Positions 5,944 through 55,092 of a stretch of DNA of 63,513 nucleotides are shown in pieces. Below the pieces are notes generated by a model. The model ran no database searches and was not told the DNA's origin. It saw nothing but the letters and a program-made list of their open reading frames with translations. Positions within the stretch are counted from its first letter, which is position 1, and each line of letters opens with the position of its first letter. Source of the DNA: an uncultured Desulfovibrio sp. (GTDB lineage Bacteria > Desulfobacterota > Desulfovibrionia > Desulfovibrionales > Desulfovibrionaceae); the NCBI RefSeq assembly GCF_944324935.1, contig NZ_CALUYG010000009.1, positions 1 to 63,513 on the forward strand, read 5' to 3'. A program made the translations under genes and the position numbers.

Positions 5944-8900
5944 ATGCAGGCATTGGGCAAAATAGTGAAAGTGGTGCTCTGGCTGGCCGTTGCGGTGCTG
6001 GTGCTGGGCGTGTTGACGGCGCTGGCGTGGTGGATGCGCTGGCCGCTCTTCACCGGCGCCATCGTGCTGCTCGGCCTGCTGGCGCTGATCGTGCTGTTCG
6101 TGGCCCTGCGCGCCGCGCTGCGCTGGAACAACAGGAAGCTTTTCGTCCGCAGGGTGCTGAACGAGCAGGACGTCACGAGCCGGAGCTCCCCCGTCCTCAA
6201 CGGCATGGCGGATGCCTGGCGGCAGGGCATGCAGATCATGACCACCTCGCCCGCCCGCTTTCACCAGTCCCTGCGCTTCAGCCAGCCGTGGTTCCTGACG
6301 CTCACCTGCGACACGGCCCCCTCCCTGCTCACTGAGACGGGAAAGACGGTCCCCGCCGACGGGAATGCCCCCCTGCACTGGCATTATCTGCGCTCTTCCG
6401 TCGTGCTGGAATGCGCCGCCCCCGCCCCGGACAGCGATGCCGGGGACTGGACCACGCTGCTTGAGCTGGTCGCCGGGCAACGCGGGGCCTGTCCCTTCAA
6501 GGGGATCGTCCTCGTCGTGTCGGCGCGCGCCCTGCGGGAATGCGGCGAAGACGCCCTGCCCGCGCTCGGCATGCGGCTGTCCAATACTGTCCAGCAATTC
6601 CTGCTCACCCGGCGGCTCAACTGCCCTGTCTTTGTCCTGGTGCGCGATCTGGAGGCCCTGCCGGGCATGGATGCCGTGGTGCGTCTGCTGTCCGCCGACC
6701 TGCTGGACAAAACGCCCGGCCTGCTGCTGGATCGCCCCGAGGAGGAACTGGCCGCCGCCGCGGACCGGACGGCCGACCTGCTGGAACGTGACCTGCAAAC
6801 GCTGGCCAGGGACGGCGCGACGCCTCAGGGCGATGCCCTGCACGCCCTGTGCGCCCTGCGCGACCTCGGCCCGCGGCTGACCCGGCTGCTGGCGCCGCTG
6901 TGCGTACCGGTGGCCCATCAGGCGTTCAGCCCCCTTCGCGGACTGCACTTCTGCTTCGGCGCGCCGCTGCCCGACAAGGGCGGCCTGCCGCCGTTCGTTT
7001 CCGCCTATTTTTCCCGTCTGCTGCCGGAACAGGGCTTCTCCCACCCGCTGAACGGCGGGCTGCCCTTCTTTGCCGCCACACGCCTGTGGATATTCGGCGC
7101 ATGGCTGCTGCTCACGCTCTTCGTCTGCGGCCTGCTCATGGCCAATACCATCTATCAGCGGAACGTGCTGCTGCTGCCGCCGCCCGCGGCGGACGGCATC
7201 TCGCAGAATCCGGCCGTCCAGAAGCTCTATGCGGAGATGCTCTATGCCCTGCAACTGGAAAAGGCCCGCAAGAGCTGGCTGCTGCCGACGCTTGGCCTGG
7301 ACATGCTGGAACGCGCGGAACAACAGAGCAAGATGCGTTTCGTGGAACAGACGTACGCGATCGTCATGGCCCCTCTGCGTAACCGCCTGCACGACACCAT
7401 CATGCAGCCGGTCACCGACGGCAACAGGGAACAGTTCCGGGATGCCGTCCTGCAGATCGGCTGGCTGTGCGACGTCATCTCCGAAAAGCTGCGCGCCGGC
7501 AGCATAGAGGAAACGGCGCGGCTTGAGGTCTTCCCCCTCGTCGGCGAGCGCGAACAGTGGAACATGATCACCGCTCAGCTCTATCTGCTGGCGCTTGACT
7601 GGATGCCCGCCGGCGAGATGCAGAACGCCCTGGCCGCCGGATTGCGCTCCCTGCTGGATCTGGCCGTCACCCGCAACAATGCCTCGCTGCTGACCAATGT
7701 GGAGCAGAGCATCAATGCCAAGCTGCCGGCCGCGCGCGTCTGCCTGTCGCAATTCTGGCCGGAAGGCTCGCCTGCCGGGGAAAAGGACGTCTGCATCCCT
7801 CCGGCCTACACCTCGCGCGGCTATGCCGTGATGGACGACGCACTGGACGACATCCTCACCATCAGCGGCAACAATGAGAACATGCGGCAGAACCTCGCCA
7901 CCTTCCGCCATGAGTATCTGCGCCGTTATGAGCGAGCCTGGCGCGACTTCTCCACGACCTTTGCCCAGGGCTGGGGCAATCTGCAGCAAAGCGACATCTT
8001 TGCCGCGCTGGGGGCCGGGGGCGATGTCGGCTCGCTGCCACATGTCCGCCTGCTGCGCCGCATGGGCAGCGAGCTGATGCCGCCCGCGCGTTACGCCAGA
8101 GAAAACGGCGCGACCATCTCCCCGTGGATCCAGGACGCGCTCCTCCTGCAGGTGCTGTGCGACATCGCGCTGGCCGATCCGAAAAGCGGCAAGGTCCCCG
8201 TCTGGCGGAGCATCCTTTCCCTTTCCTTCGAATCGCCCGAACTGCTGGCCGCCCTGCGCGACGTGACGCGCGATCTGGATCATCTGCGCCTGTCGCTTCA
8301 GGCCGCGCTGTCGCTGCGGCAGTATTTCGCCCATTGCGGCGATCTGCTTCAGGTCATGGGCAGTCAGGGGCGTTCGCTGATGCTGGCGCAGGAACATTTT
8401 GCCAATCCGAAGGATGCGCCGGCGGAAAGTCCGTACACGCTCGCGCAAAAGAATGTGAAGACCGTCGTTCAGCCCCTGTCGGCGCCGCATGGCGCCGGAC
8501 GCCTGCTGCTGGAGGACATGCTGGACTGTCTGCGGCAGGGCATCACCGTGCAGGCGGCCGCCGCCGTCCAGCACAAGTGGGAGAACGAGGTGCTCAGCAG
8601 CCCCGTCGCCCTGTATCAGGGGCATAATCTGGAAGCGCTCTACGGCAAGGACGGCGTCGTCACCAGCTTTCTCGCCAAGACGCTGGCCGCGCTGATCCGC
8701 CGTCAGGACGCCGCGCCGGCGGCCGCCTTCTGGGACGGGACGCCCTTCCCCTTCACCACGGACTTTCTTGCAACGATCTCACGGGCCGAAGCGGTCGCCG
8801 CAACGCCTCCGCGCGACGCCTATGAAGTGCTGCTGCGCTCACAACCGACCATCCTCAACCGGGAGGCCGGACAACGCCCGGACAGCACGGAATTCTACCT

Positions 8901-17692: not shown

Positions 17693-18607
17693 ATGAAGGA
17701 AGATCGTCGGCAACGCGTGGAAGAGAGCAACAGACGATTGAAGGAAGTTCTGCTGCGCCACATGACGCAACCGGACGCCCGCCCCTCCGCCATCCCTGGC
17801 TTGACTCTGGTGAGACGCGAAAAAACAAACAGCTCGGAGCGGTGCTTCGCAAAACCGCTGGCGTCCGTCATCGTTCAGGGGAGCAAACAATCCATCATAG
17901 GGATGCGGGAATATGCGCTCCAGGAAAATCAGTGTCTCGTTTCCGCCGTGGATATGCCGAGCCTTTCGCACGTTGTTTCGCCAAGCCCGGAAAAACCATT
18001 CCTTTCGTTATTTTTTTATTTGGATAAAAAGATACTGACCGAACTGATCGCGGAAATGGAGCCGGAAGAGCGGCCCGCCTTTCAGGCTGGACAGAGCGTT
18101 TCCGTCGCCGATGCCGAACCGGAATTCCTGGAGGCGCTGCTTCGTCTGGCCGAGCTTCTGGACAAGCCGAAACAGATAGCCATACGCGCGCCCATCATCC
18201 TGCGGGAACTCCACTACCTGCTGCTTGTCGGACCGCAGGGGCCCACCTTGCGGGCGCTGTACACTCGCGGTTCCTCCAATACTCAGGTCCTCAACGCCAT
18301 TTCCATTATGAGGCGGAATGTCTCCAATCCGTTGCGTATGGATGCTCTTGCGCGACAGGTCAGCATGTCCATATCGAGCCTGCAACGGCATTTCAAGAAG
18401 ATCACCGGATTCAGCCCGTTGCAGTACCACAAGCAGTTACGCTTATATGAGGCGCAACGCCTGATGCTCATGGAGAATGAACGGGCGGCAAACGCCGCCA
18501 TAGCCGTAGGCTATGAGAGTGTGACGCAGTTCAACAGAGAATATAAACGGATGTTTGGTGAGCCTCCGCATCGCGATATAACGCTTCGACGCGGCATTGC
18601 GGGCTGA
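17693..18607 (+). CDS. AraC-family regulator (YqhC-like) of the first redox operon
   Basis: This 304-residue protein has an AraC_N-type N-terminal domain (PSAIPGLTLVRREKTNSSERCFAKPLASVIVQGSK near residues 32-66) and two C-terminal helix-turn-helix motifs (LRMDALARQVSMSISSLQRHFKKITGFSPLQYHKQLRLYEAQRLM, about residues 217-261; NAAIAVGYESVTQFNREYKRMFG, about residues 268-290). This subgroup commonly controls adjacent aldo/keto reductase and flavin enzyme genes in response to aldehydes or quinones. It is divergent from the four-gene operon. The ATG is 8 bases after aggag. A paralogue of the same layout ends the second redox module. Confidence 0.88.
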   Translation: MKEDRRQRVEESNRRLKEVLLRHMTQPDARPSAIPGLTLVRREKTNSSERCFAKPLASVIVQGSKQSIIGMREYALQENQCLVSAVDMPSLSHVVSPSPEKPFLSLFFYLDKKILTELIAEMEPEERPAFQAGQSVSVADAEPEFLEALLRLAELLDKPKQIAIRAPIILRELHYLLLVGPQGPTLRALYTRGSSNTQVLNAISIMRRNVSNPLRMDALARQVSMSISSLQRHFKKITGFSPLQYHKQLRLYEAQRLMLMENERAANAAIAVGYESVTQFNREYKRMFGEPPHRDITLRRGIAG

Positions 18608-18885: not shown

Positions 18886-20193
18886 TCAGCGCAGCGACGT
18901 ATTTATTTTGCCGATATAGTAGAAGAACCGGGCGCGCGCGCTCTGAAATTCCCGCAGGGCCTCGCTGGCGTCGGTCTCCGCCTGACTGAGCGTGAGCTGG
19001 GCGTCCATCAGTTCGGTGATGGTGCCGACGCTGGTCATGTAGCGCTTGCTCGCCATATCGTAGTTTTCCTGCGCGGCCACGATGCCGGCCCGCGTGGTCT
19101 GGATGAGCTCGCGGGCGGCGTTGATGTCGAGCAGGGCCCGTATGACGTCCGTACGCGCGCCGGCCACGGCATCCTCGAAGTCCTTTTGCAGGGATTCGGC
19201 CCGCTTTTTCTCGGCAAGGCTGGCAAAGGTCGTCTGCCCGCCGCTGAAGACTTCCCAGCTGAAGCTGATGCCGGCCGCCCAGTAGCGGCGGGTATAGTCG
19301 GAAAAGCGCTTCTCGTCATAATCCCGGCTGTACTTCATGCTGTCCAGCGTGGCGTCCACGCGCGGCAGATATTCTCCCAGCCGGATGTTCATGTCCTTGT
19401 AGGCCATCTGCACGGTCTTTTGCGCGATGACAAGATCGGGGCGGTATTTGAGGGCCGCCTTGATGGCCTCCAGCTCGCTGTAGGCGACCGCCGTGCCGTA
19501 GTCGGCCAGATCGCCCCTGTAGTCCGCCTCCTGTCCGTCCTTCAGGCCCAGATATTTGGCGAGCTGCACCTCGGCGTTGCGGATGTCGTTTTTGACGCGG
19601 ATGACCTGCTGTTCGGCCCGCAGCAGCTCCGTCTTGTTCTGCAGCACGTTGGCGTACGGGGCCATGCCCACCTTGACGAACTGTTCCGCCGCATGGAGTT
19701 GTGTCTTGATGCGTTCGACGGCCTTGTCGGCGCTTTTCCTGTCTTCGCGCAGCTTGAGGAGCTGCAGGAACTGAAGCTGCACATTGCAGGCAAGTTCGTG
19801 CTGCGCCTGCTGATGCCGCGCCTTTTCCACCTCCACGGCGATGCGGGATTTCTGAAGGCCGTTCAGATGGCTGAAGCCCGCAAAGAGCGACAGGCTCAGG
19901 CGCGCGCCGCTGTTCCAGGTACGCGCACTGAGATCATCGACGCTGTAGGCCTGCTGCTCATCAAAGTTGCTGACCCGGTTATACGAGCTGATCAGGCTGA
20001 CGCGCGGCCAGAAGTAGCTTTGCGCCACGCCGACGTTCATGCGGGCCTGCTCCAGCAGGAGGAGCTTGGCCTCCACGCCGGGATTGTTCCTGAGCGCCAG
20101 TTCCACCGCCTGTTCCAGGCTGAGGCTTTGTCGGGCATGGGCCGGCAGCGGCAGCAGGCAGCAGATGAGGAAGGCAAGAAGGATGTGTTTCAT
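18886..20193 (-). CDS. TolC-family outer-membrane channel of the type I secretion system
   Basis: This 435-residue protein has a signal peptide (KHILLAFLICCLLPLPAHA) and OEP repeats: SLSLEQAVELALRNNPGVEAKLLLLEQAR (about residues 23-51), long coiled-coil helices with FVKVGMAPYANVLQNKTELLRAEQQ, and the C-terminal RYMTSVGTITELMDAQLTLSQAETDASEALREFQSARARFFYYIGK. It forms the outer-membrane duct for the exporter and HlyD encoded just upstream. The start at 20193 gives the signal peptide; the long upstream opening is read-through of the previous gene. The Shine-Dalgarno is weak, so coupling to the preceding gene (10-base gap) is likely. Confidence 0.9.
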   Translation of the reverse strand: MKHILLAFLICCLLPLPAHARQSLSLEQAVELALRNNPGVEAKLLLLEQARMNVGVAQSYFWPRVSLISSYNRVSNFDEQQAYSVDDLSARTWNSGARLSLSLFAGFSHLNGLQKSRIAVEVEKARHQQAQHELACNVQLQFLQLLKLREDRKSADKAVERIKTQLHAAEQFVKVGMAPYANVLQNKTELLRAEQQVIRVKNDIRNAEVQLAKYLGLKDGQEADYRGDLADYGTAVAYSELEAIKAALKYRPDLVIAQKTVQMAYKDMNIRLGEYLPRVDATLDSMKYSRDYDEKRFSDYTRRYWAAGISFSWEVFSGGQTTFASLAEKKRAESLQKDFEDAVAGARTDVIRALLDINAARELIQTTRAGIVAAQENYDMASKRYMTSVGTITELMDAQLTLSQAETDASEALREFQSARARFFYYIGKINTSLR

Positions 20194-21218: not shown

Positions 21219-22601
21219 TCAATCCCGCAGGGCGCGGTCCCAGCTCTTGAGCAGCGGCTCCATGATGTAGAAGAGGACGCTGCGCTGCTTTGTGGTGATG
21301 AACACCGTGACGGGCATGCCCGGCGAGAGGTAGGCGTTTTCCTTCCTGAGCGCCGCGGGATCGATCTCCACATGGCAGAGATAATAGGGCATGACCCCGC
21401 CGGGGGTCTGCTGCTCCAGCCGGTCGGCGGAAACATAGGTGACCCGCGCCGGGATGTGCGGCACAAGGCGCGTATCAAAGGCGTCAAGCTGCACCAGCGC
21501 ATCCTGTCCGGCGTAGACCTCGGTAATCTTGTTGACCGGGACCTGCGTCTCCACGATGAGGGGCGTATTTTCCGGCACGATGTCCATGAGCGGTTCGCCG
21601 GGCTTGACCACGCCGCCGCGCGAATGCACCTTGAGATCCACCACCTTGCCCGCCACCGGGGCCGTCACCTGCAGGCGGCTCTTGGCGTCCTTGAGGGGCC
21701 GCAGGCGTTCGCGGGTCTGGGCCATCTCGTTCTGGAGCCGGCCCAGATCGGCCGTGGCCGTGGCCACGAACTGATTACGCAGATCCTCCATACGCAGTTT
21801 GAGTTCCGTGGCCCGCTGCCGGGCCTCGGCCACGGACTGCCGCAGCTGACCGCGGCTGCCCTCATGGGTGGCGAGGTTGCGCTCCAGCTCCAGTATCTGG
21901 GATTTTTCCAGATAGCGCTGGCGGAACAGCTCGCGCTTGGCGTTCAGCTCTTCCCGCAGGGTGGCTATGATCTTGGTCTCGGCGGCGATCTGGTCCTGGA
22001 AGCCCGCCACCTGGGCATCGAGCTGGGCTATCTGCGTCTCGATGAGCGAGAGCTGGCCGCGCAGGGCATCACGCCGGCTCTCGAAAATCTTGCTTTCGTT
22101 GGCGAGCACATCGGCGCAGTGCAGCTCGTCCGCCATGTCCCGGAGCTCGTCGGGCCAGATGAGCTCCGGCCCGAGCACCTTTTCCACGGCGGCGCGCTCG
22201 CCGGCGGCCAGCTGCGCCACGAGCTGCTGTTGCAGCATGGCGGTGGAGGCGTCCACCTGCACGGACTGCAGGGTGATGAGCGGCTGTCCGAGGCGGACGC
22301 TCTCCCCTTCGCGCACGAGGATGTCCTCCACGATGCCGCCTTCCAGATGCTGGACGGTCTTGCGTTCCGACTCGATCTTGATCTTGCCGGGAGCGACCAC
22401 CGCGCCGCTGATCTGGCCGAACACGGCCCACAGCCCCATGCCGCCGAAAAAGAGCAGGATGATGCACAGCCCCTGCCGGATGATGCGGTTGGGGTCCTCC
22501 ACCTCATTGCCCTTGCTCTCGCGGGCCACGACGTCGGAAAGGGGGCGGATGGCGGTCGTCTCGAGGAAGCGGAGGGCTTTTTCAAGGAATCGCTTAGCCA
22601 T
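21219..22601 (-). CDS. HlyD-family membrane-fusion protein of the type I secretion system
   Basis: This 460-residue protein has a cytoplasmic N-terminus, one membrane helix (GLCIILLFFGGMGLWAVF, about residues 45-62), the lipoyl/barrel-sandwich half VAPGKIKIESERKTVQHLEGGIVEDILVREGESV (about residues 70-103), a long coiled coil (about residues 120-300) and the second half RLQVTAPVAGKVVDLKVHSRGGVVKPGEPLMDIVP. It ends with the usual GMPVTVFITTKQRSVLFYIMEPL. It links the ABC exporter to TolC. The start is Met 22601, overlapping the exporter's stop by 8 bases. Confidence 0.93.
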   Translation of the reverse strand: MAKRFLEKALRFLETTAIRPLSDVVARESKGNEVEDPNRIIRQGLCIILLFFGGMGLWAVFGQISGAVVAPGKIKIESERKTVQHLEGGIVEDILVREGESVRLGQPLITLQSVQVDASTAMLQQQLVAQLAAGERAAVEKVLGPELIWPDELRDMADELHCADVLANESKIFESRRDALRGQLSLIETQIAQLDAQVAGFQDQIAAETKIIATLREELNAKRELFRQRYLEKSQILELERNLATHEGSRGQLRQSVAEARQRATELKLRMEDLRNQFVATATADLGRLQNEMAQTRERLRPLKDAKSRLQVTAPVAGKVVDLKVHSRGGVVKPGEPLMDIVPENTPLIVETQVPVNKITEVYAGQDALVQLDAFDTRLVPHIPARVTYVSADRLEQQTPGGVMPYYLCHVEIDPAALRKENAYLSPGMPVTVFITTKQRSVLFYIMEPLLKSWDRALRD

Positions 22602-24348
22602 GCTGCACCTCCCCGGCGGCATTTGCCGCGGGCGGCGGGGGCACGGCCGCCTGTCCGCCGCCGGCAACGGCGTTTTGCCGGGCTGCCCCGGCCGTCCGGG
22701 CGTTGGCCTCGGCGAGCTGTTGCAGCACCTGCTGACGGCTGCCGCACAGGGTGATCCGCCCGTCCTGCATGACGAGGATGTTGTCCACCAGCGCGAGGAT
22801 GTCCGGCCGGTGCGTCACGAGCACCACGGTGCTCCCCCGCTGCTTGCAATTCTGGATGGCAAGGCGCAGCGAGGCTTCGCCCTCTTCGTCAAGGTTGGAA
22901 TTGGGTTCATCCAGCACCACAAGGCGCGGGTCGCCGTAGAGGGCGCGGGCAAGGCCGATGCGCTGCCGCTGCCCGCCGGAAAGCGCGCCCCCGAGCTCGC
23001 CGATCTGGGTATCGTAGCCGTGGGGCAGGCGCAGGATCATCTGATGGACGCCGGCCTGCTGTGCGGCCGCGATGACGGCCCGGGAGTCCACTTCGCCCAT
23101 GCGGGCGATATTCTCGGCCACGGTCCCGGCAAAGAGCTCCACATCCTGCGGCAGATAGCCGATGAAGGGGCCCAGCCGCTCGGGGTCCCAGTTCGCGATG
23201 TCCGCGCCGTCGATGCGCACCTTGCCGGCCGTGGGCTGCCAGATGTTGAGCAGCAGCTTGCAGAAGGTGGACTTGCCGGCCGCGCTGGGGCCGATGATGG
23301 CCAGCGCCTGCCCGGCCAGCATGCGGAAGCTCATGCCCCGGATGACCTGCCGCTGCCCCACGGCAAAATAGAGGTTCTCCACCGCTATCTCCCCGCGCGG
23401 ATCCGGCAGATGCATGTTGTTGGGCCGTATGGTCGCGTCAAGGGTGGCTTTCAGCCGCTTGTAGGCGGCCAGCGCATCGAGGGACTGGCGATAGGTGGCC
23501 ATTGCCTGATCTATGGGGGCCAGCGCCCGCCCCATGATGATGGAGGCGGCGATCATCACCCCGGCCGTCGTCTGATGCTGTACGGTCAGGTAGGCCCCCA
23601 CGGCGTAAATGGCGACCTGCAGGCCGACCCTCAGGGCCTTGCTCACGGCATGGATGAGGCCGGCCGCGCGGCTTGCGCGGGTCTGGAGGCGGATGATGGC
23701 GTCATTGACCTTGCGCCAGCGGCGGGAGACGTTGCCCGCCATGCCCAGGGCCCGCACGATGCTCGCATTGCGCATGGCGGTTTCGGTGAAGCGGGAGGCA
23801 TGCAGATTGAGTTTGGTGGCCGCTTCGAGCCGCTTGCGGGTGAGGCGCTCCGTACCGATGCCCAGGATGAACACCAGCACGCCGCCAGCCACGGCCACGC
23901 CGCCGAGCAGCGGATGCAGGATGAAGATGAGCAGGAAGTAAATGGGCATCCACGGCACGTCGAAAAAGGCGAAGACCGCGCTGCCGCCCAGAAAGTTCCG
24001 CAGGGTCTGCACGTCGCGGGGGCTGCCCTGCTCGCCTCTGACGCCTTCGGGCGCGGCGGCGGCCAGCAGGGAGCGGTAGAGGACGTCCTCGCCCAGCATG
24101 TCGTCGAAGGCTATGCCCGCGCGCACGAGCAGGCGGGAGCGTATCCATTCCAGCAGGGCCATGACCACAAGGCAGATGACCGCGGCAAGCGTGATGACCG
24201 CCAGGGTGGACAGATTGTAGCTGGTGAGCACCTTGTCGTAGACCTGCAACATATAGATGGAGAAGGTGAGCTGCAGGACATTGATGAACAGGCTGAAAAA
24301 GAAGGCGTAGCCAAAAAAGCGTCGGCAGGCGATCAGGAATGCGTGCAT
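22594..24348 (-). CDS. PrtD-type type I secretion ABC exporter (permease/ATPase)
   Basis: This 584-residue exporter has a membrane domain (about residues 1-300, starting FLIACRRFFGYAFFFSLFIN) and an ATPase domain with Walker A GPSAAGKST (residues 353-361), signature LSGGQRQRIGLARAL and Walker B LVVLDEPNSNLD. There is no N-terminal peptidase domain, as in PrtD-type exporters of RTX proteins with C-terminal signals. The start at ATG 24348 matches the N-terminus of a truncated paralogue at 52.7 kb. GTG 24375 is also in frame. The C-terminus is an unusual Ala/Pro-rich tail (VPPPPAANAAGEVQHG). The natural substrate is likely the RTX protein encoded across the invertible segment. Confidence 0.93.
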   Translation of the reverse strand: MHAFLIACRRFFGYAFFFSLFINVLQLTFSIYMLQVYDKVLTSYNLSTLAVITLAAVICLVVMALLEWIRSRLLVRAGIAFDDMLGEDVLYRSLLAAAAPEGVRGEQGSPRDVQTLRNFLGGSAVFAFFDVPWMPIYFLLIFILHPLLGGVAVAGGVLVFILGIGTERLTRKRLEAATKLNLHASRFTETAMRNASIVRALGMAGNVSRRWRKVNDAIIRLQTRASRAAGLIHAVSKALRVGLQVAIYAVGAYLTVQHQTTAGVMIAASIIMGRALAPIDQAMATYRQSLDALAAYKRLKATLDATIRPNNMHLPDPRGEIAVENLYFAVGQRQVIRGMSFRMLAGQALAIIGPSAAGKSTFCKLLLNIWQPTAGKVRIDGADIANWDPERLGPFIGYLPQDVELFAGTVAENIARMGEVDSRAVIAAAQQAGVHQMILRLPHGYDTQIGELGGALSGGQRQRIGLARALYGDPRLVVLDEPNSNLDEEGEASLRLAIQNCKQRGSTVVLVTHRPDILALVDNILVMQDGRITLCGSRQQVLQQLAEANARTAGAARQNAVAGGGQAAVPPPPAANAAGEVQHG

Positions 24349-24418
24349 GGGGTCTCTTGTCTGGCTGGTCGCCACGGCGAAGAACGGGAAACGCCGGTTC
24401 AGGTGGAACGATGGCGTA

Positions 24419-24446
24419 TATATAAGCAGCGGCCGGGGCTTGTCCA
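24419..24446 (-). promoter_or_regulatory. Predicted sigma70 promoter of the export operon
   Basis: Read on the - strand, TGGACA (24446-24441) is followed 16 bases later by TATATA (24424-24419). It lies about 70 bases upstream of the exporter ATG and outside the invertible segment, so the export operon should be transcribed whatever the orientation of that segment. Confidence 0.5.
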
Positions 24447-24459
24447 GACTATGGACGCG

Positions 24460-24485
24460 AAAAAAGACCCGAAGGCATTGCCTTC
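24460..24485 (-). terminator. Leftward terminator between the invertible segment and the export promoter
   Basis: On the - strand the hairpin GAAGGC-aat-GCCTTC (24485-24471) is followed by gggtc and six T (24465-24460). It would stop transcripts leaving the left end of the invertible segment before they reach the exporter's own promoter. The stem is short (6 bp), so strength is uncertain. Confidence 0.5.
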
Positions 24486-24579
24486 AGTAAAAAAGAGGCT
24501 ATGTTGACCTTTGCCGCAAAACCCATGCGCATCCCACGGAAAGGCGCGCCACCTTTCCCGTATGGCTGCGCGCCGAACT

Positions 24580-24607
24580 GACACACAGGGGTACACCCAA
24601 ATGTGAC
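24580..24607. repeat. Left inverted recombination site of the invertible segment
   Basis: This 28-bp imperfect dyad has 13-base arms around a central ac (24593-24594 on the + strand); its arms match each other at 9 of 13 positions. Read on the - strand it contains catttgggtgtaccc, identical to the right site. 19 of 20 bases (tgtcRcat...) agree between the two sites. The layout (two arms, 2-bp central core, opposite orientation of the two copies) is that of Hin/Gin/Pin-type crossover sites. Confidence 0.8.
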
Positions 24608-24626
24608 AATCCCAAGAGACACCTCT

Positions 24627-24655
24627 CCTGTAGCTGATCCCTGTTCCCTTGTCAA
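24627..24655 (-). promoter_or_regulatory. Outward promoter inside the invertible segment (facing left here)
   Basis: On the - strand a perfect TTGACA (24655-24650) is followed 17 bases later by TACAGG (24632-24627). It lies between the invertase gene's 3' end and the left site and points out of the segment. In this orientation it faces the leftward terminator at 24460-24485. After inversion it would face the RTX gene, with a leader of roughly 110 bases. The -35 box is ideal; the -10 box matches only 3 of 6. Confidence 0.5.
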
Positions 24656-24703
24656 ATATTTTTTCCCCTTTTCGGCGGCGGCCGGGGGATCACGGACATT
24701 TCC

Positions 24704-25258
24704 CTACCGGGCGCACTGTTTCAGGATGCGGTAAATGGACTGACGCGACATGCCGAACGTTCGGGCGATGCAGGCGACCGGCTCCTTCATGCGCTTGCGG
24801 CGGCAGATGTCCCGCACCTGCTCACTGGTCAGACGCGGCTTGCGGCCCTTGTATTTGCCCTTGGTGCGGGCGATGGCGATGCCTTCCCGCTGGCGTTCCC
24901 GTATGAACGCGCGCTCGAATTCAGCCACTGCGCCGATGATCTGCAAATGCAGCCGCTGGAAGGGCGAGGCGTCATCCGTAAAGATGAGGCGCTCCTTGTG
25001 GAAGCGCACGGTCACGCCGCGATCCGCCATCTCTTCCAGCAGATGCAGCAAGTCCCGCAGATTGCGCGTCAGCCTGTCGATGCTGTGTACATGCAGGGTA
25101 TCCCCCTGCCGCAATGCCGCCAGACATTCCCGCAGTTCAGGCCGGTTGGTATCGCCTCCGCTTACGGTGTCCAGAAAAACCTTGTCGAGTCGCACGCCCT
25201 CAAGCTGCCGTTCCGTATGCTGACCGCAGCTGCTGACGCGAACATAGCCTATATCCAT
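24704..25258 (-). CDS. Serine recombinase / DNA invertase (Hin/Pin-like)
   Basis: This 184-residue protein has a resolvase/invertase catalytic domain starting MDIGYVRVSSCGQHTERQ, with the nucleophile among the serines of VRVSS (residues 9-10). It has the conserved LRQGDTLHVHSIDRLTRNLRDLLHLLEE block, the QIIGAVAEFERAFIRERQREGIAIARTKGKYKGR hinge/E-helix (about residues 110-143), and a C-terminal helix-turn-helix (ACIARTFGMSRQSIYRILK). The start 25258 follows gaggagtttacag; a longer opening to 25438 crosses the right recombination site and is not used. It ends in TAG. It lies between two inverted sites and very likely inverts the segment that contains it. Confidence 0.93.
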   Translation of the reverse strand: MDIGYVRVSSCGQHTERQLEGVRLDKVFLDTVSGGDTNRPELRECLAALRQGDTLHVHSIDRLTRNLRDLLHLLEEMADRGVTVRFHKERLIFTDDASPFQRLHLQIIGAVAEFERAFIRERQREGIAIARTKGKYKGRKPRLTSEQVRDICRRKRMKEPVACIARTFGMSRQSIYRILKQCAR

Positions 25259-25382
25259 CTGTAAACTCCTCAAGCCGAACCCTGCCACGCAGGCCGCATC
25301 TCCCCTCCTGAAGGCCGTACGCCCGGAAGTCCGCGGCAAGCCTTTCCGAACAGTGCCAGGCGTTTTTGTTGGCGGAAAGGGT

Positions 25383-25410
25383 GTCGCATTTGGGTGTACC
25401 CAAGTGGGAC
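25383..25410. repeat. Right inverted recombination site of the invertible segment
   Basis: This 28-bp dyad has 13-base arms that match at 11 of 13 positions around a central gt (25396-25397). The inner 14 bases ttgggtgtacccaa are a perfect inverted repeat around that core. It is the inverted copy of the left site at 24580-24607. Recombination between cores would flip about 0.8 kb holding the invertase gene and the outward promoter. Confidence 0.8.
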
Positions 25411-25427
25411 GAAACAAGGGACCACCT

Positions 25428-25448
25428 TCAGGATACACGCTATCCTGA
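25428..25448 (+). promoter_or_regulatory. Hairpin in the RTX leader
   Basis: tcaggata (25428-25435) and tatcctga (25441-25448) form a perfect 8-bp inverted repeat around cacgc. It is followed, after 9 bases, by a run of seven T within caatttttttatgg, and then by the RTX Shine-Dalgarno. It may be an operator, a 5' stabilising hairpin, or a weak terminator/attenuator in the leader. Confidence 0.45.
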
Positions 25449-25476
25449 CAATATCAATTTTTTTATGGAGGATATC

Positions 25477-28400
25477 ATGTCCGCACCCGCATGGTTCAAC
25501 TACGAGACCTATCTCGTCAACAAGCTGGCCCAGTTGAAGACTGCCGATCCCGAGCAGTACGGCGACTACACCGAGGCCGAACTGAAAGCCAGCATGCTGG
25601 AGGCCGGCTACAGCAATGATGCCGACGGCATGTATCAGCACTTCGAGCAGTTCGGCAACGCCGAGAACGTGAGCCCCTCGCCCTACTTCGTGGTGAGCGA
25701 ATATCTGGCCAACAAGCTGACCCAGTTGCAGACCCTCGACCCCGAGCAGTACGGCAGCTTCACCGTGACCGACGTGGCCAACAGCTTTGCCGAAGCCGGC
25801 CTCTCCGCCTGGGATCACTACACGCTGTTCGGTCAGGCCGAAGGCGTGAGCCCCTCCGCCATCTTCGATAACAACGCCTATCTGGCCGCCAAGCTGGAAC
25901 AGCTGAAAACGCTGGACCCCGCCCAGTACGGCGAATACACCGTGAAAGATGTGGTCAATGCCTTTGCGGCCGAGGGCCTGAACCCCATCGAGCATTACAT
26001 GCTCTTCGGCATCAATGAAGATCTTTCCTACAGCCCCGTCACGCCGGAACCGCCCGTCACCGACGAGCTGACCACCGCCCGCGACGTGCTGACCCTTGAC
26101 GCCGGCGACAGCATCATTGCCGGTGTGGCCTCCGCCCTGAGCGCCGAAAAAACCCTCAATGAAAATGACCTCATCGACGGCGGCGAGGGCAACGACACCC
26201 TGCGCGTGACCCTGGACGCCAACTTCAACGGCTTCACCGTCACCGACGATCCCAACACCACCGGCGGCATGAAGAACGTGGAAAATGTGGAACTGACCAA
26301 CAACGGTTCCATCACCCGCACCTTCTCCGCCAAGGGCAGCGAAGGCGTGACCACCTACACCCTGCATGCGGGTGAGGCCGGCACCGGCGCCATCAACCTC
26401 AAGGATCTTGCCGCCGCGGGCATCACCGTCAACGTGGACGGCCTGCAGAAAGGCACCACGGACGTGCAGTTCGCCACCGGCGCGCTGACCGGCGCGGAAG
26501 ACAGCATGACCTTCGGTCTCAACAACGTGGGCGCCGCCGCCGCTTCCGCCACGGCCGATCCCACCTATGTGGGCCTGAAGGCCACCACTGGTCTGGAAAG
26601 CGTGACCATCAACGCTTCCGGCGTCAACTATGCCGACCTGAGCGGGCTGGATGCGGCTTCCGTCGCCGTCACCGGCGCGGGTTCGCTGGAGGCCAGCGCC
26701 GTCAACGCCGCGCTGACCAGCCTTGACGCCTCCGCCGCCACCGGCAGCGTCAGCGCCGATCTGAGCGCCGCCACCATGCAGACCGTCAAGGGCGGCGCGG
26801 GCGACGACACCTTCATCGTAAAAGGCCTTGCTCCCACCGCGGTGCTGGAAGGCGGCGAGGGCAACGACACCCTGATCATCAGCGAATCCGGCGCTGCCAC
26901 CCTGCAGCCCACGGTCTCCGGTTTTGAGACCATCGGCATTGCGGACAATACGGGCGCCATCACCCTGTCCGCCAAGAACGCGCAGGACTTCACCACCCTG
27001 CTGCTGGAAAACACGGGCGCCAAGGTGACCGTGGCCAACCTGAGCGGCAGCACCTTCACCGTCGAATCCCTTGGCGCTGAAAAGGGTGCGGCGACGACCA
27101 ACACCGCCGTCATTGCCGACGCCGTGGATCTGACGGTCAACGTCAACGCCGGCGATGACGCTGAAAAGGCGCAGACGGTCACCACCGATATCACGGCTGC
27201 CTCCGCCCCCAATGCGGTCATCAATGTGGGCGCCAACGTGGCGGCTGCCGGTATCTTCACCTTCGGCGCGGCCCAGAGCGTGCAGCTCAACGTGGCCAGC
27301 AACAAGGTGGATGATGCCGAGCAGACCTCCTTCGCCGGCACAATCACCGCCGCCAAGGCCCAGAGCCTCGAAGTCAAGGCCGAAGGCGCCCTGGGCTCCA
27401 GCGCGAAATTTGACGTCGCCAACGCCGCCAGCGTGGTGCTGGATGCCGCCCAGGGTGGCACGGCTGCCATTGTCGCCGGTAAGGCCACGGATGTGCGCCT
27501 GACGGCGGGTGGCGATCTCTCGCTGAGCGGTTCCAACCTTGCCGCGGCCCAGTCCGTGACCGTGGTGCAGAACGACGGTGCACTGACTGGCGATATCGCC
27601 CTGACCGGCCTGAACAGCCTGAACGTCTCCGGGGATGGCGCGAAATCCGCCGTGACCTTTGGTGCCTTGGGCAGCGCCAGCAATGACTACTCGCTCAACG
27701 TGGTGGCGAGCGGCCTGGCTGCCGGCTTCACCAGCGGCGCTGTGGCGTCCAAGGGCGACATCAGCCTTGATTTCTCCGCCGTTTCCGGCGACGTCACCCT
27801 CGGCGCCATTACCGGCGGCGCTGACGTGAGCCTGGCCGCCAGCCAGCTCGGCGACAATACCTTCGGTGCAATCAAGGCGGCCGGCAGCGTCGACGTGCAG
27901 GCCATCGGTCTGCTTGGCGACCAGCTTACCCTGGGCGACATCACCGCAACTGGCGATAACAGCAATGTGTCGCTGGTGGTTGACGGAACCGCCACGGTGA
28001 AGGGCCTCGAAAACATCAGCGCTACGGGCAGCGTCAATGTCGACCTTTCCGGCTACATGGGCGATACTTTTGCCTTGACCACCATCAAGGGTGCGGACGT
28101 TACCTACGTCGGCGCTGATTTGGTGGCGAACGATCTCGGCACAGTCACTGCCAGCAGCCTGAACTTCACCGGCGGCCTTGAGGTGGATACCGTTACCCTG
28201 GAAGGCGTCGACAATGAAACGTCCCTTACGGCTACCCTGGACACCGGTACTGGTACGGATGTCGTAACGGTCAATGGCGTTGCCTCCACGGAAACCATCA
28301 CCGTTTCCGGCGATCTGGGCGGTGACAATGAAGCTGTCACGGTCGACGGTTCCGCCAACGTCACCTCCGGCATGACGATCAACATCGGCGGCCTGACGGG

Positions 28401-29256
28401 CTACGCCACGTCCGCCATCACCGGCACCAGCTTCTCCGATACCATCATCGGCGGCAGCGGCGATGACACCATTACGGCCGGGGCGGTGAGCTTTGCGACG
28501 GCTGGATCGGCGGAAGTTCCCGCCGTGCAGGGTTCCGCGACGTATACTTTCTCCGGGTCCTTGACTGGTGATGCTGCAAAAACCATCCAGATTGGCTCTG
28601 TTACTTCTGCAGCAGTGCCGACTGGAACAGATATCAACAATCTAGCTGACCTCATTGCTTTCATCAACAGCGACTCGTTTCTGAACGTCGCCTTCGTGGC
28701 TTCCGAGAACAGTGGTAATTTGGTGATTACGGAACTTGCTGGCAAGGAGGGTGACTACATTACCAGCACAACACCTCCTACGATTACCGCCACTGGTCTT
28801 ACTTTGACGGGTAAAGGCGATGCGACGGCAGGTTCCGCGCTCGTTCCCGCTGTGCCCGCCACTGACGGCATCGTCGACACGCTGACCGGTGGAGCTGGTG
28901 CGGATGTCTTCGAGCTGTCTGTGGCTGGCTTGCAGAGCACGGCAAACACGGACTCGGCCACGACCATCATCACCGACTTCAGTACCGCCGATGGTGACAC
29001 GCTGAAAATCGGTTCTCTTGGTGCGGGTTCCGGCACCGCTTATATGGAAGATGTCGCAACGTATAACAGCCTTTCCGCTCTGCTGACGGCTGCTGACGTC
29101 GCGCTGGATGGTACGGTCAAGTATGTGGCCGCCATGTTCAATGGCGATACCTACATCGTGGCTGACAATGCCGGTTCCGGCCATTCCGCTATCGTTCAGC
29201 TTCAGGGCGTCAGCCTTGACCAGCTGGATGATACCGGCAGCTTCATCACCGCCTAA
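25477..29256 (+). CDS. RTX / S-layer-like protein secreted by the type I system
   Basis: This 1259-residue acidic protein has no N-terminal signal peptide. It begins with three ~60-residue repeats (about residues 7-69, 70-128, 129-187; YLxNKLxQLxTxDPEQYGxYT ... HYxLFG). The body is beta-strand rich with Thr/Ala/Gly/Asp. Calcium-binding nonapeptides occur as GGEGNDTLR (~234), GGAGDDTFI (~439), GGEGNDTLI (~458), GGSGDDTIT (~992) and GGAGADVFE (~1137). The C-terminal ~120 residues are the uncleaved type I secretion signal region. It is probably a surface-layer protein or adhesin. Start 25477 has ggaggatatc upstream; the opening from TTG 25366 crosses the recombination site. It faces away from its exporter genes, with the invertase switch between. 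Confidence 0.85.
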   Translation: MSAPAWFNYETYLVNKLAQLKTADPEQYGDYTEAELKASMLEAGYSNDADGMYQHFEQFGNAENVSPSPYFVVSEYLANKLTQLQTLDPEQYGSFTVTDVANSFAEAGLSAWDHYTLFGQAEGVSPSAIFDNNAYLAAKLEQLKTLDPAQYGEYTVKDVVNAFAAEGLNPIEHYMLFGINEDLSYSPVTPEPPVTDELTTARDVLTLDAGDSIIAGVASALSAEKTLNENDLIDGGEGNDTLRVTLDANFNGFTVTDDPNTTGGMKNVENVELTNNGSITRTFSAKGSEGVTTYTLHAGEAGTGAINLKDLAAAGITVNVDGLQKGTTDVQFATGALTGAEDSMTFGLNNVGAAAASATADPTYVGLKATTGLESVTINASGVNYADLSGLDAASVAVTGAGSLEASAVNAALTSLDASAATGSVSADLSAATMQTVKGGAGDDTFIVKGLAPTAVLEGGEGNDTLIISESGAATLQPTVSGFETIGIADNTGAITLSAKNAQDFTTLLLENTGAKVTVANLSGSTFTVESLGAEKGAATTNTAVIADAVDLTVNVNAGDDAEKAQTVTTDITAASAPNAVINVGANVAAAGIFTFGAAQSVQLNVASNKVDDAEQTSFAGTITAAKAQSLEVKAEGALGSSAKFDVANAASVVLDAAQGGTAAIVAGKATDVRLTAGGDLSLSGSNLAAAQSVTVVQNDGALTGDIALTGLNSLNVSGDGAKSAVTFGALGSASNDYSLNVVASGLAAGFTSGAVASKGDISLDFSAVSGDVTLGAITGGADVSLAASQLGDNTFGAIKAAGSVDVQAIGLLGDQLTLGDITATGDNSNVSLVVDGTATVKGLENISATGSVNVDLSGYMGDTFALTTIKGADVTYVGADLVANDLGTVTASSLNFTGGLEVDTVTLEGVDNETSLTATLDTGTGTDVVTVNGVASTETITVSGDLGGDNEAVTVDGSANVTSGMTINIGGLTGYATSAITGTSFSDTIIGGSGDDTITAGAVSFATAGSAEVPAVQGSATYTFSGSLTGDAAKTIQIGSVTSAAVPTGTDINNLADLIAFINSDSFLNVAFVASENSGNLVITELAGKEGDYITSTTPPTITATGLTLTGKGDATAGSALVPAVPATDGIVDTLTGGAGADVFELSVAGLQSTANTDSATTIITDFSTADGDTLKIGSLGAGSGTAYMEDVATYNSLSALLTAADVALDGTVKYVAAMFNGDTYIVADNAGSGHSAIVQLQGVSLDQLDDTGSFITA

Positions 29257-51352: not shown

Positions 51353-52321
51353 TTACCCGCCGTCGGCGGGACAGGCGGCGCGCTTTGCCGGGGGCTCGGG
51401 CCGGCCGGACAGCGCTGCCGTGCCCCGGCGGCGATGCGTATCCCGCAGCGGGGGTTCGCCGAACTCCCGCTTGTACTCCCGGGTGAACTGGGTGATGCTC
51501 TCGTATCCCACCTTGAAGGCCGCCGCCGAGGCCCGCTCGTTTTCAAACAGCATGAGGCGCTGTGCTTCATACAGCCGCAGCTGCTTCTGATATTGCAACG
51601 GACTGAGCCCCGTGAGCAGCTTGAAGCAGCGATGCAGATTGGCCGTCGACATGTTGACCTGACGCGCCAGCGTGGCGATACGCAGCGTGGTTCTGTAGTT
51701 CCGGCGGATCCATTCGACCGCCTGCATGGCCTGATGGTTCTGCGTTCCCAGGGTGTTCAGCCGCCGCAGGATATGGCCGTGCGGACTGATCAACAGCAGA
51801 TAATGCAATTCGCGCAGCATCATGGGCGCGCGAAGAGCTATCTGCTCCGGCTTTTCCAGCAGCTCGATGAGGCGGAGGAACATCTCCAGAATATCGGGAT
51901 GGGTATCCGCAACGGATACGCCGGTCATCTCGTCCGTTCCCGCCTCAGTCCCCCGGGGCATCTCCGCCGTCAGCGCGGCCAGCAGCGGCTTGTCCAGATA
52001 GCAGTAGCAGAAGAGGAAGGGCTCCTCCGGCGTCGGGCCCTCCACATACGAGGAAATGGGCATATCCACGGCGGCCACGATGCTCTGGCTGGCGGAATAG
52101 ACATATTCCCGACCGCCCATGTACGAATGCTTCGTGCCCTGCACCACCAGCCCCACCAGCGGCTTTTCAAAGCATTTTTCGGGTGTGCCCGTCTCCTCGC
52201 GCCGCGCAAGGCTAAAGCCCTCGATGGCCGTGGGCAGGATGCCGGGCCGCGGCAGATAGTGCAGGAGCTTTTCCCTGATGCGGGCATTCAGGCGGCTTGC
52301 GCGATCAAAATCATCCGGCAT
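51353..52321 (-). CDS. AraC-family regulator (YqhC-like) of the second redox module
   Basis: This 322-residue protein has the AraC_N-type domain (PTAIEGFSLARREETGTPEKCFEKPLVGLVVQGTKHS) and two C-terminal helix-turn-helix motifs (LRIATLARQVNMSTANLHRCFKLLTGLSPLQYQKQLRLYEAQRLM; AAFKVGYESITQFTREYKREFG). It is clearly related to the regulator at 17.7 kb, sharing the core LSPLQYQKQLRLYEAQRLML pattern. It is convergent with the flavodoxin gene and likely controls the module. ATG 52321 has gaggag 9 bases upstream; ATG 52330 directly abuts it. Confidence 0.88.
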   Translation of the reverse strand: MPDDFDRASRLNARIREKLLHYLPRPGILPTAIEGFSLARREETGTPEKCFEKPLVGLVVQGTKHSYMGGREYVYSASQSIVAAVDMPISSYVEGPTPEEPFLFCYCYLDKPLLAALTAEMPRGTEAGTDEMTGVSVADTHPDILEMFLRLIELLEKPEQIALRAPMMLRELHYLLLISPHGHILRRLNTLGTQNHQAMQAVEWIRRNYRTTLRIATLARQVNMSTANLHRCFKLLTGLSPLQYQKQLRLYEAQRLMLFENERASAAAFKVGYESITQFTREYKREFGEPPLRDTHRRRGTAALSGRPEPPAKRAACPADGG

Positions 52322-52668
52322 GCTTGTCATCTCCTCGACGCATTGGGCGTGTATGACGCGCTTTCCGTACGGAGCCGCGCGCCTTTCCGGTGAGCGTCCG
52401 CCATCCTACCCGACTTGACCGCAACAGTCGAGACGCCGCGCCGGCCGCCTGTCCCACCCGGCCCGCAGCGCCTGTCAGCCCGACCCGCATCCCTCGCGCA
52501 TTTTGCCGCCGTCCGGCCAGCACAGGCGGGAAATGTGTACTATGCAATACATATCATATTGAAATATAATGGAAAATTTAAATAGTGCATATATATAAAA
52601 AACTATATCAAAAGAAGGTTTCTTTCCACGACCACGAGCTGCCGTCGCATCGGCAGAGGATGGCTATC
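52322..52668. other. Intergenic region with AT-rich leader, no intact gene
   Basis: This 347-base gap lies between the araC-family gene and the truncated exporter gene. Bases 52322-52530 are GC-rich with no gene seen. Bases 52535-52620 are strikingly AT-rich (gaaatataatggaaaattt, atatataaaaaactatatc), unlike nearly all surrounding DNA, and could hold promoters or mark imported DNA. Confidence 0.4.
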
Positions 52669-53040
52669 ATGGATGTCTTTCTTGCCGCATGCAAAAAAAT
52701 TTTCGGCTGCGCCATGCTGTTCAGCCTGTTCATCAACATCCTGCGGCTGACGTTTTCCATCCACATGCTTCAGGTCTACGACAGGGTGCTGACAAGCTGC
52801 AATGTGTCCACGCTTGTCGTCATCGCCCTTGCAGCCGTGGTGGCGCTGATGACGCTGGCTGTCCTGGAATGGATACGCTCCCGCCTGCTTATCCGCACCG
52901 GAGTGGAATTTGAGCGCATGCTGAGCTTTCCCGTGCTGGACGCCGAATTGCGCATGGCTTCGGCGCTGCATAAGCGACCGGATCAGGGAGAGATACGCGG
53001 TGTGCAGACCTTGCGTGGCAGATTGTCAAACGAAAGTTGA
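52669..53040 (+). pseudogene. Truncated PrtD-type type I secretion exporter
   Basis: The 123-residue product (MDVFLAACKKIFG ...) is colinear with the N-terminal ~120 residues of the complete exporter at 22.6-24.3 kb. It shares FSLFIN, LTFSI-MLQVYD-VLTS, LEWIRSRLL and GxIRGVQTLR. It then diverges at RLSNES and stops, losing most of the membrane domain and the whole ATPase. The Shine-Dalgarno (agagg) and start are intact. No other type I secretion gene is nearby, so it is a decayed or partly transferred paralogue. It cannot work as a transporter by itself. Confidence 0.82.
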
Positions 53041-53201: not shown

Positions 53202-54680
53202 TTACCGGGAGCTTTCCGGCACGCCGTAGTCCCGTTCCGCCGCATTGATGACGGCGCGTACCCGCCTGCGGGCCTCTTCCGACAGCGGTTCCGGCCGCCA
53301 CTCGGCAAGCAGCTTTCTGGCCGCCTCCAGCGCCCGCGCTTCCATATCGAGCGATCCCGCCTCCTTCCAGCGGTCGCGCGTCAGCCGGTCGATAAGTTTG
53401 GGCTTCGACTGGATGTGCATATTCTCGAAGGTATTCATGTGGGAGAGGAAATCCCCGCGCGGACCGACCTCCTTGATCACGTCCACGGACAGGGTCTCGT
53501 CGTTCACCACGATACCGTCCATGCTATACAGCATCATCTCCGCCATTTCCGCGTCCATCAAGAGCTGGCTGTAGCTGATGGTCATCCCCATCTCCAGCAT
53601 GCCGAGACCGTAAATGATGTTGGCACCTGCCAGCATCGGCAGCAGTCCGGTCAGCGTCTTTTCATGGCCGCTCTGGGCATCGCCGCACTTGCTGTCCCCC
53701 TAGCCGCCCGCTGCCCAGGAGGGCAGCTTGTAGTAGCGGGCCATGCAGGCGACGCCGGCGTTGAGCATGGCAAGTTCCGGCGTGCCCACCACCGCCGCGC
53801 CGTAGCGCAGGTCCATGGCTGTGGAGGAGCTTCCGTAAATGAATTTGGCCCCCTTGCGCGTGACCTGCGAAAGCACCAGACCCGCCAGCGCCTCGCAATT
53901 ATGCACCACCAGCGCCCCGGCCAGGTTGACCGGCGTGGAACCGCCGGCCATGCCCATGGACAGCACGTTGACGATGGCCCCGTTGCGGGCGGCCACCATG
54001 ATGACTTCGCAGACGTCGCCGGTGAGCTTCAGCGGGCTGATGGGGCAGGTGTTGAAGGTCACCGGGCAGCGGTTGGCGAAGTCCTCCTCGCCCACCACGG
54101 CCCTGGCCATGTCGATCATGTACTGGGTCAGTTTGCCGTTGCCGCCGCCGGTGAACACATGCTTGGTGGTGTTCATTAGCAGGGCTTCATAATTGTGCAG
54201 CTCGGCCACGGCTTCGGGATAATCCTGCGCCCCGGCCATGCGCTCGCATACCGGTATGACGTCCAGCGCATCCACGAGCCGCGTCAGATCCTCCACGTCC
54301 TTCTTGGTGGAATTGCGCAGTTCGCCGCTTTCCGGGTCCACGATATAGACGGCTTCGCCGAAGTTGGTGAAGACAACCCGCCTCCCGTCCATCATCACAT
54401 CCCTGTCCGGCGTGCGCCCCGGCAGCGTCAGCACCTCGGGCGCACTGGCCACGGCCTCAGCCACCAGCCATTGCGGGATGCGTACCAGATCCTCGTCATA
54501 GACGCTGGCGCCCGCCTGTACGAGCAGCTCGCGCGCCTCCGGCGAGCCGATGAGCACGCCTGTGGTCTCGAGGATCTCAAGGGTAGCCCGATGGATGGCG
54601 TCCATCTCGTCCTGCGTGAACATGTTGAGACGCAATCCGCCGCTGGCAAGGCTACCGGCCTGTTTCCAGCGTTGTGCCAT
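53202..54680 (-). CDS. mttB: Trimethylamine:corrinoid methyltransferase MttB with in-frame pyrrolysine codon
   Basis: Reading through the in-frame TAG at 53702-53700 gives a 492-residue MttB: an N-terminal part (326 residues, ending YYKLPSWAAGG), Pyl at residue 327, then GDSKCGDAQSGHEKTLTGLL and the C-terminal LAGANIIYGLGMLEMGMTISYSQLL. Length and amber position match archaeal MttB, where Pyl attacks trimethylamine and the methyl group passes to a corrinoid protein. AGGAGG lies 5 bases before ATG 54680. The second half has no other start with a ribosome site. It ends in TAA. No corrinoid-protein gene is adjacent in the window. Confidence 0.93.
53700..53702 (-). other. Amber codon decoded as pyrrolysine
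   Basis: The TAG sits between WAAGG and GDSK of MttB. The Asn of the non-Pyl paralogue (LPTRFMAGNTDAK, residue 321) aligns with it. pylB, pylC and pylD are 7-10 kb away on the same strand. The same gene ends with TAA, so termination and Pyl insertion use different codons here. Confidence 0.9.
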
Positions 54681-54835: not shown

Positions 54836-55092
54836 AAAGTAAATAATTTCAGCATATTATATAAAAGCACCAAAAACACCCCTTACATACGCTTGCTTCC
54901 GTTTTGGGCAATTGATATATCAAAAAAAATAAAAAAATATCTCATGGAAAAGGAGGTATCCGCGTGGCAAGCCCCCCCCACAGCAAATCGTCCCGCCGCC
55001 AGCATGGCAAGGACGTTACGACATCCGTCAACGGCAGACGTCCCGGCGCAGCGGCGGGCATGCCGCAACCCGCAGCACGCTCAGGAGAAAAT

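Follow-up and report, generated by a model that had tools for sequence, protein, structure and literature searches.

Between the genes of a type I exporter and the gene of an RTX exoprotein, the DNA analyzed here carries a short segment with its own recombinase gene, and the question raised by this locus is whether the segment is an invertible switch that sets the expression of the RTX gene. The window is the whole stretch studied, 63,513 nucleotides, and makes up the entire contig C9 of the source genome, G000. The initial annotation had read the segment as an ON/OFF switch assembled in its OFF state. On the sequence comparisons presented here, phase variation of the exported RTX protein with the assembled orientation being OFF is the most likely reading, and we would give the switch explanation as a whole (inversion, promoter activity, ON/OFF control, origin, and the pairing of the exporter with the RTX protein) a little over three chances in four.

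The exporter and the RTX protein

The exporter genes lie on the minus strand and encode a type I secretion permease/ATPase of the PrtD type (22594..24375; TIGR01842, 670.9 bits, above the cut-off), an HlyD-type membrane fusion protein (21219..22667; TIGR01843, 369.1 bits, above the cut-off), and a TolC-type outer-membrane protein (18886..20193, with an inferred start in an open frame that extends to 20769) that was assigned through Pfam OEP (E 1.6e-59), the match to NCBIfam TIGR01844 being below its cut-off. On the plus strand, 25477..29256 encodes an RTX exoprotein of 1,259 aa with Pfam HemolysinCabind repeats, the gene proposed to be switched. The PrtD-type ATPase, HlyD, TolC, and RTX repeats are together the components of type I secretion with an RTX substrate, and from their adjoining positions we infer that the exporter serves this RTX protein. 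Between the source genome and Candidatus Desulfovibrio intestinavium (G046, L035), the exporter proteins are 90 to 93% identical and the RTX proteins 55% over 1,052 aligned residues. The RTX N terminus was modeled as a helical domain with three repeats (mean pLDDT of 82.9), for which the best sequence match in the PDB was unrelated (E 0.16) and no fold match was obtained; the N-domain of the S-layer protein RsaA, at E 4.0 and a TM of 0.16 in Foldseek, is no match. The RTX protein, called S-layer-like in the initial annotation, may therefore be of that type or of another.

Elsewhere in the window, a remnant of another type I exporter ATPase (52585-53040; 57% identical over residues 10-133) adjoins an AraC-like gene (51353-52330), and another AraC-like gene (17693-18607) adjoins the intact exporter, both AraC-like genes being assigned by eye. 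An MttB-like methyltransferase gene, also recognized by eye (53202-54680, minus strand), has one in-frame TAG at codon 327, which is a known feature of pyrrolysine-containing MttB, and is followed by a transporter-like ORF at 54964.

The recombinase and its two inverted sites

The gene within the segment (24704..25258, minus strand) encodes a serine recombinase or DNA invertase of 184 aa in which an N-terminal Resolvase domain is combined with HTH_7 (PF00239, E 6.4e-37, and PF02796, E 2.9e-06, both above the cut-off), as in serine site-specific recombinases. The nearest solved structure is 4m6f (E 3.3e-27), an entry named DNA-invertase that we take to be Gin. No NCBIfam equivalog cut-off was reached by this protein, the Mpi-type model giving 55.2 bits against a cut-off of 272, and its 23 relatives in IMG/VR are at most 56% identical. 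Compared with its G046 counterpart (dN 0.036, dS 0.63, dN/dS of about 0.06), the recombinase is by this measure under purifying selection, which fits an active and a frozen switch alike. Another recombinase of the source genome (C6, 50% identical) lacks a comparable dyad pair, the best repeat nearby being 29 nt at 72%. An E. coli Fis query found seven places in G000 (E up to 1), all in frames of 465 to 981 aa and none a small protein, so that the switch, if working, would work without the Hin enhancer of the Salmonella type.

The initial annotation had described a serine recombinase gene between two 28-bp dyads in opposite orientation, each built around a 2-bp core and the two agreeing at 19 of 20 inner bases, and all of this holds. 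Site A, on the exporter side, occupies 24580..24607 with the core AC at 24593-24594, and site B, on the RTX side, occupies 25383..25410 with the core GT at 25396-25397; the arms match at 10/14 and 11/14 positions, respectively. The repeat finder gives the pair as an inverted repeat of 25 nt, 88% complementary, at 24584-24608 and 25382-25406 with 773 nt between. Two inverted dyads with 2-bp cores flanking a recombinase gene is the arrangement of Hin/Gin-type systems. The best inverted repeat within 300 bp on either side of the recombinase gene scores 17, and 3,000 dinucleotide shuffles reached 14 at most. Among the 15 sites compared, the mean number of arm matches was 8.9 versus 3.9 with shuffled arms, the poorest dyad (5/14) being site A of Mailhella excrementigallinarum (G176, L036). 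The 15-mer shared by the two sites, CATTTGGGTGTACCC, occurs with up to two mismatches only at A and B in the genome of 2,709,544 bases. A site model was built from 20 half-sites of the switch loci; it gives 31.7 for A and 33.9 for B, both of which were among the sites that built it, and finds nothing else scoring at least 8 in the 63.5 kb, five plain shuffles of the window reaching 7.6 at most. The cores of A and B, read on the plus strand, have opposite polarity (AC versus GT), and since opposite polarity leads as a general rule to inversion and not to excision, these cores would call for inversion, which on the whole is likely.

Conservation of the unit in six genomes

Relatives of the recombinase at E 1e-20 are found in 99 of the 288 family genomes, with the named genome collection contributing its best 80 loci out of 103. 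A flanking-repeat screen of 114 loci (not every recombinase match had a locus) returned eight rows, from four distinct loci, with a GTACAC dyad, and L051, L078, and L089 had flanking repeats that lack this dyad. Two further genomes, missed by the screen (3-kb segment; contig end), were added by wider reading: G067 and Mailhella merdavium (G178, L037). The switch was thus found in six genomes among the 288: G000, G046, G053, G067, G176, and G178. Each of the six has exporter, site, TTGACA, recombinase, site, and RTX gene in this order. In G053 the switch lies on one contig, and the G178 locus consists of two contigs joined by a 17-nt overlap within the recombinase. In a tree of 38 recombinases chosen by hand, the six switch members form one side of a branch with a support of 99/100, and none of 500 label shuffles was as low as this six-member clade. 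Judged by its sequence in these genomes, the switch is real anatomy and a conserved, dedicated unit.

Several neighboring observations stand beside this. The switch segment of G067 (L146 6994-8675) measures 2,963 bp core to core and has, by eye, PIN-domain-like and Fic-like ORFs between the recombinase and the promoter, which is still 63 nt from the core. An RTX gene in G054 has a lone site upstream (L187 3872-3901; score of 18.3, outside the model set), and this genome has no relative of the recombinase at E 1e-20; the site is either a relic or the target of a lost partner. As a fixed-ON relative G054 is a weak candidate, TTGACA facing both the RTX gene and the exporter. A fossil of the ON junction suspected by eye in the RTX leader of G067 was no better than shuffles (722/1,000), and the value for G000, 10/1,000, is unconvincing. 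In L147 of G053 (G053:C1:1843001-1862000), a second, different serine recombinase lies beside two 26-bp inverted dyads (6337-7076 in all; dyads at 6944-6969 and 7051-7076) that enclose 81 bp with a promoter-like TTTACA-16-TATAGT, seen by eye; downstream come ORFs that are regulator-like and barrel-like and a further RTX gene, and the sequence looks like an independent invertible promoter.

The putative outward promoter and its surroundings

The promoter-like sequence of the segment, TTGACA-17-TACAGG (24627..24655, minus strand), points out across site A, with its -35 hexamer beginning 62 nt from core A. It had been called the only good outward promoter of the segment; its position and strand stand, but TACAGG matches TATAAT at only 3/6 positions and the strict sigma-70 scan leaves it unlisted. 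What is constant is the spacing, with TTGACA, read outward, 62 nt from the core in G000, G046, G053, and G176 and 63 nt in G067 and G178, while the letters in between vary widely among the six loci. A TTGACA inside the segment and pointing out of it is what would be expected of an inverton; the -10 hexamers, that of G000 being poor, are weak everywhere but in G053, whose TTGACA-16-GATAAT (11/12) comes closest to the consensus. The pattern TTGACA-N52..55-GTGTACCC matches the six switch genomes and four of the other 282, with seven matches of the reversed control in the 288 genomes. The four extra matches (L229 and L232-L234) have no site, the best model score being 1.7.

The one promoter that the strict scan lists in the region is at 25457-25430 on the minus strand. 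This sequence, TTGATA-16-TATCCT, lies in the RTX leader (window 25430-25457), is aimed at the recombinase, which it would drive only in the assembled orientation, and has the counterpart TTGAGA-16-TATCCT in G046.

The polarity of the cores agrees with the placement of the promoter. The promoter strand carries GT at its site in all six switches, and the GT strand reads into the gene at each of the 10 site-bearing RTX genes (one each in G000, G046, G053, G067, and G054, three in G176, and two in G178), so that recombination would yield the order promoter, GT, RTX gene. Eighteen other loci, taken as RTX genes and rescanned, have no site, with a best score of 4.3. From core B to the RTX start is 79 nt, which would make the leader about 107 nt long after inversion, close to the 110 or so bases first proposed.

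The RTX-facing strand offers little at close range in the assembled orientation. No RTX-facing TTGACA is present between the exporter and the RTX gene in G000, G053, G067, or G176, and the promoter scan, which covered G000, G046, G053, and G176, lists nothing on this strand in G000 and G053. It does list TTGCCA-16-TATGTT outside site A in G046, where a TTGACA overlaps the promoter-like site, and TCGACA-18-AAGAAT inside the recombinase gene in G176, and an RTX transcript in the assembled orientation is therefore possible in these two genomes. A hairpin in the RTX leader of the window (25428..25448, plus strand; TCAGGATA-CACGC-TATCCTGA) was seen by eye and is kept in G046. The leaders of G053 and both Mailhella genomes end in TATCCTCCGGAGGATA (L036 5473-5495, L145 10980-10999, and L185 7380-7405), a hairpin covering the ribosome-binding site whose fold in G176 is no better than shuffles (40/200 as good). 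Rfam, run on five loci, gave one match far below the family cut-off, taken as chance.

On the other side, the promoter faces the exporter in all six assemblies, and it could be shared, boosting the exporter operon in one orientation and driving the RTX gene in the other as a toggle between exporter and substrate. The scan of G176, which lists neither a terminator nor an exporter promoter between the switch and the exporter, would suit such sharing. We nevertheless consider it quite unlikely. An intrinsic-terminator-like hairpin found by terminator scan and folding lies in the path in G000 (24469..24487, minus strand; -12.7 kcal/mol, with 3/200 shuffles as good), and a hairpin is also present in G053, although the terminator scan of the G000 region found two against 2.0 expected in shuffles, with likewise no excess in G053, and the hairpin of G046 is poor (57/200 shuffles as good). 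Moreover, the exporter has promoter-like sites of its own beyond the switch: TGGACA-16-TATATA by eye in the window (24419..24446, minus strand), TGGACA-18-TATAGT in G046, TGGACA-17-TATAGT in G053, and, again by eye, one each in G067 and G054. An exporter without its substrate would also be of little use.

Kin sites and a probable resolvase-like origin

The site model was applied, with a dyad threshold score of at least 12, to 124 non-switch recombinase loci as a held-out test. A dyad lay in the 500 nt upstream of the recombinase in 16 of these loci, and in the other 108 there was no site at this threshold and distance. None was found within 500 nt downstream, four lay elsewhere in 0.99 Mb, and shuffled upstream stretches gave 1/2,300. 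The contrast between 16/124 and 1/2,300 argues that these dyads are genuine sites of the recombinase family. The loci concerned (L013, L018, L019, L022, L033, L046, and 10 more, each with a single upstream dyad) come from other family genomes, Sulfuricurvum, several Actinomycetota, a Dehalococcoidia, and Clostridia-type bacteria; many are near relatives of each other, so that the 16 are not 16 independent cases. The distances are mostly 128 to 203 or 326 to 389 nt, with one of 483 nt, and site B, lying 138 nt before the start of the recombinase, has the position of the single site in the related recombinases. A second, inverted site downstream of the gene was seen in the switch clade only (0/124 of the others within 500 nt).

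In Tn3-type res, crossover site I sits upstream of the resolvase gene, and the dyads 128 to 483 nt upstream of the 16 related recombinases resemble this layout, as does site B. The window differs in having a second, inverted site beyond the other end of the gene, and its two sites, with their opposite cores, are not the directly oriented pair of a Tn3-type res. We propose that the switch probably began as a resolvase with one upstream site, which became site B, and acquired a promoter and an inverted second site, A.

The same resolvase-like placement of a single upstream site could be taken to mean that a resolvase gene accompanied by its site, or a small mobile element, lies between the two genes by accident, and it would suit this that the inner half-sites are more alike than the outer ones in G000, G046, G067, and G176. 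The constant position between exporter and RTX gene in six genomes, the single copy in G000, the restriction of the second site to the switch clade, opposite cores unsuited to resolution or excision, and the Mailhella sites at RTX genes with no adjacent recombinase together make this a very improbable account of the locus.

RTX genes with sites in Mailhella

The two Mailhella genomes have more than one RTX gene with a site. Two of the RTX genes in G176 lie face to face, with an outer site at one end and the switch-adjacent site at the other, and share a 923-nt inverted repeat (92%) over the leader and N terminus; the proteins agree at 53, 46, and 56 of 60 positions in the first three blocks, at 15 to 31 of 60 in later blocks, and at 12 of 19 in the last block. 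A third RTX gene of this genome, further out, has the same leader and a site scoring 22.5, outside the model set. G178 has two RTX genes, of 547 and 1,409 aa. All five of these RTX genes, three in G176 and two in G178, are preceded by a 32-base leader motif without mismatch; a search of the 288 genomes that allowed up to three mismatches gave no other occurrence.

From this layout, inversion between the inner RTX site and an outer one would place a different RTX gene next to the switch, and the extra RTX genes with sites suggest exchange in these two genomes besides ON/OFF control, although the outer sites could also be relics. A wider scheme would be modular RTX cassette exchange in the Desulfovibrionaceae, with one promoter-invertase segment, derived from a resolvase and its site, beside the exporter and with one or several RTX genes that each have a dyad and leader of the same kind, the same recombinase both setting ON or OFF and picking the exported protein. 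G176 and G178 would then be set up for exchange, and the window would be the one-gene form. We give this scheme even odds.

Proposed mechanism and the single orientation

In the mechanism that we favor, the 803-bp segment (core to core) holds a serine recombinase gene of its own together with a single outward promoter, and the recombinase would pair sites A and B and invert the DNA between them. In the assembled orientation the promoter would read toward the exporter, with the terminator-like hairpin in its path and the exporter having its own promoter-like site, and this orientation would be OFF, the RTX gene having no good promoter pointing at it from nearby. After inversion, the promoter would read through site B into the RTX leader, the ON state, in which the RTX protein would be made and exported.

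The claim of an ON/OFF switch thus gains from a cassette kept in six genomes, the core polarity, the promoter placement, and the kin sites, and a finding against it is that no inverted copy was found among the six switch assemblies, all of which have the same orientation. Under a free 50:50 switch, the chance of this is 1 in 32. Assemblies show the commoner form, and the facing-away state may therefore predominate; slow or biased switching would be another possible reason. The single orientation would equally suit a once-active switch that is now frozen or rarely flipping, with the recombinase retained in some other role, for example as a repressor of the promoter through the adjacent site. 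The fixed 62 to 63 nt, which would put the expected transcription start near the site edge as if the recombinase met RNA polymerase, fits that role too. A pure operator, however, would need no distal site, the inner half-sites are alike at 12 to 14 of 14 positions in five switch loci, so that inversion would leave the sites nearly unchanged, and the inverted repeats of G053 are perfect over 30 bp, all of which makes a frozen switch unlikely. An active switch remains our preferred reading.

If this is correct, bacteria of the Desulfovibrio group control a large exported protein through a switch devoted to it, to which Mailhella adds a route for exchange, and it would fit that the RTX protein has diverged fast (55% identity) beside a well-kept exporter (90 to 93%). 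It would also be a serine invertase seemingly working without Fis and would illustrate a possible path from resolvase to invertase. The two junction sequences are a marker that can be counted in existing reads.

Comparison with known systems

The arrangement had been put forward as undescribed, and this agrees with the literature searched, mostly papers outside subscription, where the matches listed include no serine-invertase switch that acts on an RTX protein or occurs in Desulfovibrio. DNA invertase, RTX, and phase variation did not occur together, and the matches on Desulfovibrio, invertible DNA, and phase variation concern other matters by title.

The closest likeness is to Hin/fljBA of Salmonella and the Gin G-segment of phage Mu, in which a small serine recombinase with a C-terminal HTH is encoded inside the segment, two inverted dyads of 26 to 28 bp have a 2-bp core, and, as in Hin, a promoter is carried out of one end. 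The window differs in that the target is a type I exported RTX protein adjoining its exporter and in that no Fis was found in G000. The Bacteroidales Mpi-type systems of gut bacteria also invert promoters, those of surface structures, by a serine recombinase, but there one recombinase serves many distant sites, whereas here recombinase, promoter, and sites are one unit. Clostridium difficile CwpV is a large phase-variable surface protein and in this resembles the proposed state of the RTX protein. The cwpV switch is unlike ours in that a short upstream segment is inverted by a tyrosine recombinase, RecV, encoded elsewhere and that control is by termination.

In the sap system of Campylobacter fetus, surface protein homologues are exchanged beside one promoter, which is similar to the Mailhella layout, but the exporter genes are inside the sap segment and here the exporter is outside the switch segment. 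We know of no dedicated serine invertase with dyad sites for sap. Phase variation with exchange of sap homologues is described in one report (PMC3887049), and sap inversion without RecA is stated in a reference title cited by another (PMC5634654). The locus described here is thus of a known kind, the serine-invertase promoter switches, and is set apart by its place between an RTX gene and exporter, its multigene forms in Mailhella, and its probable resolvase-like origin.
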